A DNA stretch of 64,000 nt from Flavobacteriia bacterium (GTDB taxonomy: Bacteria > Bacteroidota > Bacteroidia > Flavobacteriales_D > Crocinitomicaceae): NCBI GenBank assembly GCA_016178305.1, contig JACOTM010000020.1, positions 1 through 64,000 of the forward strand, given 5' to 3'. Below, piece by piece: positions 1,700 to 60,242 of the stretch; position 1 is the stretch's first letter; each line of letters begins with the position of its first letter. Position numbers and translations under genes: made by a program. The notes below the pieces were generated by a model. The model saw only the letters and a list, made by a program, of their open reading frames with translations, did no database searches and was not told the origin of the DNA.

Positions 1700-1886
1700 C
1701 GTTTCTGAGATTTCAATTATTATGAATCAAAAGTAAACGAGTTGTAAAATAATTAAAAATGAATATTCATTAGCTTTTTGGATTTCATTCTGAAATTCTA
1801 ACAGCTATTTTTATCCAATAATTTTAGACAAATTATTTTCGTAAGTTTATCGCGATGGTTTGAGTTTGTCGAAAGAAGTTTATTTC

Positions 1887-2150
1887 AAACCTCAGTTCGA
1901 TTAATATTTTACACTCAGATTTTAATTAAATTTGAAAGGACAAGGCGTGTTTTCGTAGGTTTAGCGGGCTAAATCAAGAAGACACAACGAAGGCTTTTCG
2001 AATTTAATTGAAAAGCATTTTGTACATTTCACCTATAAAAAGTGATTTACTTCCGATTGCAAAATATTAATCGAACTGAGGTTTCAAGAAACTTTTGAGA
2101 AGTGAATTGCTGTTTATAGACAATCTGAATGTAAAATTTTAGTCGAATTA
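1887..2150. repeat. Intergenic palindromic element, copy 1 (24-bp perfect inverted repeat)
   Basis: Between the phosphoesterase and the next gene, 1887-1910 and 2061-2084 are exact reverse complements over 24 bp (core CCTCAGTTCGATTAA). Inside are TAGCGGGCTA (1962-1971) and CTATAAAAAGTGATTTACTT (2033-2052). A second array, CTTTTGAGAAGT then TTTATAG (2092-2119) and a further end-like sequence (2125-2150), follows. The same modules recur at 59933-60219, and one end recurs at 20180-20207. No reading frame is visible, so it resembles a non-autonomous miniature element or a structured intergenic repeat. The family is not recognised. Confidence 0.75.
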
Positions 2151-15141: not shown

Positions 15142-15238
15142 TCGCAATTTACTTTCGGTATATGCAATATAAATTCACCTCAGAAACAGAAGGCGTGTTC
15201 CGAAAAGCCAGTAGAGTAGGAAAATAATTAAAATTAAA

Positions 15239-20179: not shown

Positions 20180-20207
20180 CCTTAGTCTATAAAATTTTAC
20201 ACTCCGA
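20180..20207 (+). repeat. Remnant end of the intergenic palindromic element
   Basis: CCTTAGTCTATAAAATTTTA and the following CACTC match the ends of the elements at 1887 and 59933 (CCTnAGTTCGATTAAAATTTTA, CACTC) with few differences. No partner end is nearby, so this looks like a decayed or solo end. Confidence 0.5.
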
Positions 20208-20265: not shown

Positions 20266-20284
20266 TACCTCGTTCATTTAAATA

Positions 20285-20392
20285 ACTTATGAAGAAAGGT
20301 GGAGGGATAGGCCCTACGAAACCTTGGCAACCTCCGTATTTTCGGAATAGGTGCCAAATCCAATTCCGATTTAATATCGGAAAAAGATAAGT
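20285..20392 (+). promoter_or_regulatory. SAM-I (S-box) riboswitch
   Basis: P1 is ACTTAT (20285-20290) with ATAAGT (20387-20392). Between them are the S-box core blocks in order: GAAGAAAGGTGGAGGGA, GGCCC, GAAACCTTGGCAACCT, AGGTGCCAAATCC and an AATTCCGA/TCGGAA P4-type stem. These are the conserved SAM-I nucleotides. It precedes methionine synthase by 77 nt, so SAM binding should lower metH expression. No classical terminator stem with a T-run lies between aptamer and ATG, so translational control or a non-canonical platform is possible. Confidence 0.95.
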
Positions 20393-20468
20393 AGATTGAA
20401 TTTTTAATACAAATTCCCCTCTTTTCATAAATTTATTCAAGTGTACTTTACAAATTTTATTGTATTGA

Positions 20469-59371: not shown

Positions 59372-59932
59372 ATGAAGACATTGAAAATAACATTATTCAC
59401 AATCTGCTGCTTATATTTTGGAAGCTCATTTTCACAATACGAAAAAACCTGGAGTATCGGTCTTGGTGCAAATATGATTGATAATGATGGTAATGCTTTT
59501 GGTAATTTCTTGAATATAAAAAAAGGATGGAATACACTTCCTTTTCCAAACACTTTAACAATCGGATATAAATACAACGATTGGTTCAAATTCGAATTCA
59601 TGGAAGCCATTAATTGCTTTGAAAAAGGGAAATATGAAAATGGTATAAAGATGACTCGTCCTCAGTATTTTTATTCAACATCTATACAAGCTCAAGCACA
59701 TGTGAATAATTTATATAATAAAATAATGTGGTTCGATCCTTATTTTAATGCTGGTGTAGGTGTTACTGCAATCGATCATATTGTTTTGCTACAACCAAAT
59801 ACTGGACTTGGAAGTAATTTTTGGTTGGATAAATCAATAGCAATCAATGTACAAGCTTTGGGCTTCTTTGGAATTACGCAAGTGAAAAATAATTTTATCA
59901 TGTACACAATCGGATTAAAAGTTGCTTTTTAA
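59372..59932 (+). CDS. Secreted outer-membrane-barrel-like protein
   Basis: 186 aa. Signal peptide MKTLKITLFTICCLYFGSSFSQ, then WSIGLGANMIDNDGNAF and alternating strands ending in FIMYTIGLKVAF, with a terminal aromatic. The family resembles small OmpA-like or porin-like barrels of Bacteroidota (no peptidoglycan domain seen). Unknown function. Confidence 0.78.
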   Translation: MKTLKITLFTICCLYFGSSFSQYEKTWSIGLGANMIDNDGNAFGNFLNIKKGWNTLPFPNTLTIGYKYNDWFKFEFMEAINCFEKGKYENGIKMTRPQYFYSTSIQAQAHVNNLYNKIMWFDPYFNAGVGVTAIDHIVLLQPNTGLGSNFWLDKSIAINVQALGFFGITQVKNNFIMYTIGLKVAF

Positions 59933-60219
59933 CCTTAGTTCGATTAAAATTTTGTATTCAGATCAGCTATAAATAGTGAGTTACGATTAAAAGGCTAGAA
60001 GGAATAGCGGGCTATTTCAAGAGGCTTTTGAGAAGTAAATCGCTTTTTATAGTTGAAAATACAAAAAAGTTTTTCAATTATATTCAAAAGGGCAATGATG
60101 TTATCTTGATTTAACTCCTTTCGAAAAAAACTCAAACGATAGTGCTAAATATCTGGTAACAAACATCTTTATTTCAAGTTAAAATATTATCTGAGTGTGA
60201 AATTTTAATCGAACTTAGG
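59933..60219. repeat. Intergenic palindromic element, copy 2
   Basis: The ends CCTTAGTTCGATTAAAATTT (59933-59952) and its near-complement ending CGAACTTAGG (60219) form an imperfect inverted repeat. Internal CTATAAATAGTGAGTTACGA (59967-59986), TAGCGGGCTA (60005-60014), CTTTTGAGAAGT (60025-60036) and AAGTAAATCGCTTTTTATAG (60033-60052) match copy 1, in part inverted. No reading frame. Confidence 0.75.
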
Positions 60220-60242
60220 TTTTTAATAAAAGCAGCAAATAG

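Follow-up and report, generated by a model that had tools for sequence, protein, structure and literature searches.

In the usual view, a MITE is a short-lived deletion derivative that stems from a single insertion sequence in a single lineage. REPs and REPINs, which go with RAYT, are dispersed pairs of inverted hairpins on opposite strands. IS982-derived MITEs are already known in Bacteroidota from MITECca01 of Cardinium, which, in the part of its description that we draw on, has IS982-family ends and no transposase, is about 240 bp long and lies mostly between genes at high copy number (PMC9769881). The same part of that report gives MITECca01 from one strain only, ties it to the parental ISCca4, and describes neither conserved arms nor conservation across genera (PMC9769881). 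In the cited sections of a survey of IS982, this is a DDE family in which the length of the target duplication usually varies, 3 bp included, and 57 of 69 elements start with AC (PMC7335449). BrickBuilt and other P. gingivalis MITEs are likewise Bacteroidota MITEs with predicted stem-loops; as far as the cited part of their description goes, the stem-loops come from tandem repeats, the ends are different, and outside matches lie in ends or coding traces (PMC4596501). ERIC, NEMIS/Correia, RUP and QMITE-type elements are short, palindromic and strongly folding MITEs that are transcribed, according to the portions of the two sources used here (PMC3733652, PMC10969869).

The element described here resembles MITECca01 in its phylum, IS982-family ends, lack of a transposase, approximate length, mostly intergenic position and high copy number. 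Unlike what is described for MITECca01, its interior has persisted in many genera with little variation in length and with compensatory changes. It differs from the ERIC, NEMIS, RUP and QMITE-type elements in having two distinct arms, inverted relative to each other and biased to opposite strands, with covariation across genera, and from REPs and REPINs in having arms of ~90 nt inside IS982-type ends, 3-bp duplications and no Y1 transposase in its own genome. Comparison of G.U with A.C mismatches tells the strand on which each arm is kept. A search of the open-access literature, end sequence included and with subscription papers and ISfinder outside its scope, returned no report of the element or of strand-specific paired MITE arms.

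We consider it probable that the element is a MITE moved in trans by IS982 transposase, and that its two inward-strand hairpin arms are under selection as a single-stranded form. More tentatively, and with rather less confidence than we place in that reading, we propose that an IS982-ended Bacteroidota MITE carries a two-sided, inverted and strand-specific pair of hairpin modules that acts as RNA or as single-stranded DNA. If so, the MITE would be the vehicle of a structured module under selection across genera and not a passive deletion derivative, functional RNA modules in bacterial MITEs would become directly testable, and other structured MITEs could be sought with a simple in silico test.

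Two family members in the window

The window, that is, the whole 64,000-base stretch analysed, comprises bases 1-64000 of contig C29 in a 3.6-Mb genome of 124 contigs. It contains two members of one element family, and their features are collected in Table 1. A preliminary description had recognized two copies with common ends and modules; we confirm both and correct their limits. Copy 1 differs from a full-length copy on contig C124 by a single 71-bp deletion in the alignment, which removes the 5' half and the apex of arm 1. Copy 2 has both ends and both arms, with additional bases at the apex of arm 2. The motifs TAGCGGGCTA and CTTTTGAGAAGT belong to the arms.

Table 1. Positions in the window of the two MITE copies and of associated features.
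Feature	Position	Strand	Basis
MITE copy 1, 196 bp, internally deleted	1888-2083	-	covariance model 145.5 bits, minus strand
Target-site duplication TCA, left side of copy 1	1885-1887		sequence
Target-site duplication TCA, right side of copy 1	2084-2086		sequence
Probable piece of older host copy (arm 2, older type)	1848-1887 (approximate start)	-	gapped local alignment to reversed copy 2
Remainder of older host copy: 3' part of arm 1 and decayed end	2084-2150	+	alignment to copy 2
MITE copy 2, older subfamily, 291 bp	59931-60221	+	covariance model 150.1 bits; alignment A1
Target-site duplication TTT, left side of copy 2	59928-59930		sequence
Target-site duplication TTT, right side of copy 2	60222-60224		sequence
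Left terminal inverted repeat, copy 2	59931-59963	+	33-nt arm, 85% complementary to 60189-60221
Right terminal inverted repeat, copy 2	60189-60221	-	33-nt arm pairing with 59931-59963

Judged from its sequence, the region of copy 1 is a composite, in which the insertion is nested in an older, decayed and rearranged member of the same family. The right flank aligns to copy 2 (TCAAGA..CTTTTGAGAAGT..TTTATAG) and retains the end motif with two mismatches at 2133-2149, the decayed end of the older host copy. The left flank is a probable piece only, its similarity to reversed copy 2 being clearest in the last ~35 bases. When the flanks of copy 1 are joined with one TCA, the run TTTCAAGA..CTTTTGAGAAG is restored and matches copy 2 across the junction, which provides a second line of evidence for mobile DNA. 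The suggested inversion of part of the internal module between the copies is explained by their opposite orientation plus the nesting.

The joined flanks of copy 2 gave no junction-spanning match in 12 genomes of the genus, a result that the poor conservation of the upstream gene accounts for. Copy 2 sits at the stop codon of the upstream frame (59920-59935); this TAA takes a single T from the duplication and its AA from copy 2, and the joined flanks likewise give TAA.

Within the window, the end motif has nine matches (4.1 expected), CTTTTGAGAAGTRAAT five (4.5 expected) and TAGCGGGCTAWWTCAAGA two (0.2 expected). A segment at 20180-20207 had been taken for a solo end. Its alignment score of 37.8 is not significant against shuffled sequences (mean 30.5, maximum 51.8), nor is the segment among the covariance-model matches at E≤10, and its reading as a solo end is not supported. 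Two known RNA motifs occur elsewhere in the window: a SAM riboswitch (20284-20393; RF00162, 89.1 bits) just downstream of the claimed solo end, and a DUF805b RNA (15190-15222; RF02914, 36.1 bits, threshold 35.6).

Dispersal, target-site duplications and IS982-type ends

The family is genome-wide, as the preliminary description had supposed. The 24-base end motif, with up to three mismatches, occurs at 43 sites in the genome and its reversed control at none; copy 2 as a blastn query gives 88 rows at E≤10, with overlapping rows and both strands counted. The best five candidates scored are full-length copies of 263-267 bp (C124:18860-19126, C10:1937-2203, C21:56775-57040, C17:12199-12463 and C18:20163-20425). 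We collected 101 distinct places from this genome, its relatives and named records, dropped eight that were short, weak, duplicate or carried insertions (L002:1117-1407, L273, L276, L293, which is L100, and L340, L354, L355 and L356), and removed three duplicates. This left 90 distinct copies, 88 of them with both flanks known.

The intact element is 262-268 bp long in 76 of the 90 copies. It has terminal inverted repeats of ~30 bp (AACCTGAGTTCGATTA...) and reads AACC...GGTT from end to end. Directly outside AACC...GGTT, 56 of the 88 copies have an exact 3-bp duplication and 32 do not, compared with a mean of 9.6 and a maximum of 18 when flanks are shuffled among copies (1000 trials). Duplications of other lengths are found in 0-8 of the 88 copies, and ATT and AAT together account for 30 of the 56 exact ones. 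The duplications at the window copies are TCA for copy 1 and TTT for copy 2. Compared with the published IS982 ends, the limit implied by the duplication lies one base farther outward, at AACC. The copies at C21:66062 and C93:47399, two separate loci of the genome, have the same deletion junction in arm 1, CTATAAATAGGAAGTAAATC; the deletion derivative itself may have moved, or the same microhomology may have been used twice. Matches in one genome (G024) that were considered as ends of insertion sequences are copies of the same 266-bp element, and a blastn search for plasmid or phage carriers of the C124 copy gave no match at 1e-5.

No transposase lies inside the element, as had been noted: there is no gene-sized frame between the ends in sequences of 196, 291 or 262-268 bp. 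The ends themselves are found around IS982 genes. The end pattern, used to scan named genome contigs, occurs in at least 110 stretches, and among the matches listed (80) all are titled Bacteroidota or Balneolales, with carriers including Pedobacter, Flavobacterium, Aquimarina, Marivirga, Dysgonomonas and Riemerella columbina. Pairing of the ends among these listed matches gives size classes, one of which comprises at least four loci of 1007-1011 bp. In a record titled Urechidicola croceus MAG (L167:4959-5969, 1011 bp, duplication ACT), the ends flank an intact transposase of 297 amino acids that matches NF033520 of NCBIfam (IS982, 262.5 bits, cut-off 130) and PF13612 of Pfam (DDE_Tnp_1_3). This locus resembles the IS982 family, in which elements of ~1 kb have ends flanking the transposase; the MITE differs in having no gene. 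L227 (TAA) and L237 (AAC) likewise have the same ends and duplications, and L193 has the ends without a duplication, so that 3-bp duplications occur at three of the four ~1-kb IS982 loci (L167, L227 and L237). The end is found on both sides of IS982 at these four loci and at a broken copy in G023, and it adjoins IS982 genes or pieces in G001, of the same genus as the window, and in G023, G760 and G049.

The matching transposase or RAYT gene expected of such a family was thus found in part, as IS982 with the same ends in other genomes; the own genome (G000) gave no match to Y1 and none to IS982, whether with the transposase protein, NF033520 or PF13612. Three one-contig closed genomes that carry the element (G523, G526 and G546) have no IS982 gene. 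We compared 38 of the 49 element-bearing genomes with 19 genomes without a match to the covariance model, and found IS982 matches at 1e-10 in six and in none, respectively. The IS982 cut-off was passed in two of these 38 (G589 and G023). At their intact IS982 loci the end is absent within four mismatches of its 16-mer, and in these two genomes it appears at that tolerance only at the broken IS982 locus of G023.

The element is a MITE, with IS982 as its probable mobilizer: the MITE-like character proposed in the preliminary description stands, with terminal inverted repeats, target-site duplications and IS982 as the matching transposase family in other genomes. Given these shared ends, IS982 is the likely mover, and we infer mobilization in trans. 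In the proposed mechanism, the element is a non-autonomous transposon of ~265 bp with terminal inverted repeats (AACCTGAGTTCGATTA...) of one IS982-family group. An IS982 transposase acting in trans would bind the ends and then excise or copy the MITE, which would insert at an AT-rich site and generate the 3-bp duplication. Many of the copies seen today may date from activity that has since ceased.

The same ends also bound MITEs whose interiors are unrelated (L152, L172, L197, L225 and others); such elements are ~191 bp long in Pedobacter and 425-602 bp in Balneolales.

Two hairpin arms and the strand on which each is kept

Between the ends lie two hairpin arms of ~90 nt, arm 1 and an inverted arm 2, which have a common apical hairpin module. 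In the 265-bp class, the modules follow the same order in copies from different genera (alignments A1 and A2), with a column identity of 64-65%. A covariance model (265 positions, 96 pairs) matches 49 of 399 sampled genomes in the order, in 17 of 70 genera (E≤1e-6). Across the phylum it matches 8 of 395 genomes at 1e-4; besides the own genome, only G214 and G282 exceed 100 bits, and the remaining matches are below 40 bits. A match of 36 bits in G214 (L281) covers arm 1 only. Two loci in records titled Crocinitomicaceae (L153 and L217) coincide with the loci of copies in G587 and G708, which belong to the GTDB family of the window.

Some copies carry additional sequence. In L165:2594-3031 and L231:7236-7673, both of the 265-bp class, a second element of ~173 bp with ends like AACCCAAATTATGCATTAGT sits at the apex of arm 2. 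Arm 1 holds extra sequence in L355 and L356 (both G049) and in L093 (G007); the inserts of L355 and L356 are similar (ATTCGTTTCTCTCACCCTTC..CGCTTCGCTCAGTTG) and occupy the same place. The elements of L092 (G049) and L209, a record titled Marivirga sp. MAG, are 89% identical and the taxa of the records differ, which reflects either recent horizontal spread or a binning error.

The 21 sequences of alignment A2 share a three-part structure of end stem, arm 1 and arm 2. Paired cells amount to 87.7%, compared with 74.1% after shuffling and 35.6-46.7% when the structure is slid along the alignment; the helix of the end repeats (helix 1) has 91.3% of its cells paired. Double changes are present in 63 of the 96 pairs (39.4 after shuffling), and none of 500 shuffles reaches any of five structure measures. 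Two cautions apply: relatedness alone can lift an alignment above its shuffled versions, and the alignment tested is also the one that yielded the structure. The slid controls and the strand test described below are therefore the better evidence. These alignments show that compensatory changes maintain both arms throughout the order. The apical modules of arm 1 (plus strand) and arm 2 (minus strand) match each other above 5 bits in 21 of 59 copies, compared with none of 59 on the reverse strand and none of 177 shuffles. A known structured RNA family was considered and rejected: no Rfam 15 family passes its gathering score at the window elements, and none exceeds threshold at the elements in 20 loci, where the only hit is a flanking tRNA. 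At lenient E-values Rfam gives only weak eukaryotic or staphylococcal matches.

The strand test exploits the difference between a palindrome kept only as DNA, in which G.U and A.C mismatches, each a single mutation away from Watson-Crick pairing on one strand or the other, should be equally common, and a folded single strand, which tolerates G.U more than A.C. We used 59 sequences (245-272 bp, less than 93% similarity) for this test as well as for those of unpaired bases, apical modules, gene context, energy and promoters. To keep the test unbiased, they were aligned without structure, and a fold restricted to Watson-Crick pairs gave the same 82 of 82 pairs on either strand. G.U and A.C mismatches number 106 and 30 in arm 1, 49 and 126 in arm 2, and 46 and 37 in the ends; counted as column pairs, the ratios are 16:6, 5:20 and 9:9, respectively. 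When the set is reduced to 20 sequences, each from another genus or record title, the counts are 29 and 5 in arm 1, 15 and 39 in arm 2, and 8 and 8 in the ends. In this smaller set the inward strand is favoured by 19 column pairs against 5 (p 0.007, column pairs treated as independent).

Base composition and folding energy follow the same pattern. The A+G share of unpaired bases is 0.68 on the plus strand of arm 1 and 0.70 on the minus strand of arm 2, and the G+T share has no matching skew in the arms. RNA energies are lower on the plus strand for arm 1 in 56 of 59 copies (mean 11.8 kcal/mol) and on the minus strand for arm 2 in 52 of 59 (mean 6.0 kcal/mol); with DNA parameters the same strands are favoured in 58 and 56 of 59. 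The end repeats, taken as control, lean weakly to the plus strand in RNA energy (40 versus 19, mean -1.5 kcal/mol, p 0.004) and give 35 versus 23 with DNA parameters (p 0.17). Strand bias in the end repeats is absent or weak. By these comparisons, each arm is shown to be maintained as a fold of one strand, namely the strand that reads inward from the end next to that arm, which suggests selection on a transcribed or single-stranded form of the element.

Possible roles of the arms

The likeliest selected form is RNA from transcription running into the MITE, because a transcript from either side meets a correctly folded arm first; the layout would work for either orientation of insertion. A folded arm could protect or end the read-in transcript, or bind a protein that aids persistence. 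The Bacteroidota-type promoter consensus TAnnTTTG is not enriched inside the element (9 and 5 of 59 copies, 10.1 after shuffling), and the two-sided layout is easier to reconcile with a role as RNA than with an internal promoter. Copies with a deletion in arm 1 have an intact duplication (copy 1 of the window) or a common deletion (C21:66062 and C93:47399), and arm 1 may thus be dispensable for moving.

The arms could instead function as single-stranded DNA in folded form, for instance on the lagging strand or within an intermediate of transposition, and provide landing or recognition sites. Although doubtful in our view, this alternative is in agreement with the strand preference obtained with DNA parameters, which leaves RNA and single-stranded DNA not separated, and with the likeness of inverted hairpins on opposite strands to the REPIN layout. 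However, IS982 is a DDE family, for which we know of no single-stranded recognition, and purine-rich unpaired bases are usual in RNA.

Alternatively, the element could be an ordinary MITE with a passive interior, in which the arms are ancient palindromic filler that is duplicated together with the ends. Compensatory changes would then stem from correction of the palindromes by template switching, and the asymmetry from a mutational process. Arm-deleted copies exist, and the MITEs that combine these ends with a different interior indicate that the ends suffice for moving. Nevertheless, we regard a passive interior as unlikely: the length stays at 262-268 bp in 76 of 90 copies despite a column identity of ~65%, the strand bias follows the orientation of the element, runs in opposite directions in arm 1 and arm 2 and almost vanishes in the ends, and the GT content of the unpaired positions is not skewed as a mutational process would predict.

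A host-beneficial cis-regulatory RNA, such as a terminator, attenuator or mRNA stabilizer, that spreads by transposition and is retained because of what it does to nearby genes is improbable. The position of the element would suit such a role, with no more than 30 bases of ORF overlap in 55 of 59 copies and many copies close to gene ends, and transcribed MITEs that alter mRNA stability are on record in the part of the review cited here (PMC3733652). However, the 51 gene gaps with the element (27 tandem, 16 divergent and 8 convergent) reveal no preference for convergent genes or 3' ends when compared with other gaps at the same loci (36, 12 and 10), so that nothing here suggests that individual host genes profit from the element. 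In the 20 loci, no Rfam family reaches threshold at the elements.

The other half of the preliminary description, a REP or BIME family that owes its movement to a RAYT (Y1) transposase, has the dispersed, palindromic and intergenic character in its favour but is refuted on the features tested and can be set aside, given the 3-bp duplications, the terminal repeats of ~30 bp, a length of 265 bp in place of a 20-40 nt palindrome without target duplication, the presence of the same ends on IS982 elements, and the lack of any Y1_Tnp (PF01797) match in the own genome.

We folded 15 copies of MITEs with the same ends and other interiors, and reject a structured interior as a general property of IS982-ended MITEs (z-scores of -1.9 to 0.4 for L194, L176, L234 and L184). 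Among the Pedobacter loci, L172, L197 and L224 are IS982-ended MITEs of ~191 bp with inverted pairs of CGTC-tagged palindromes (GTCATGCTGAATTTATTTCAGCATC ... CCCTGAA..TTCAGGGTGACG). According to the part of the review cited here, such REPs have no dedicated transposase (PMC3733652), and IS982 ends could be one vehicle for them. At L171, L184 and L244, of which the first two are titled Balneolales, IS982-type ends surround interiors of 425-532 bp with other GC-rich hairpins.
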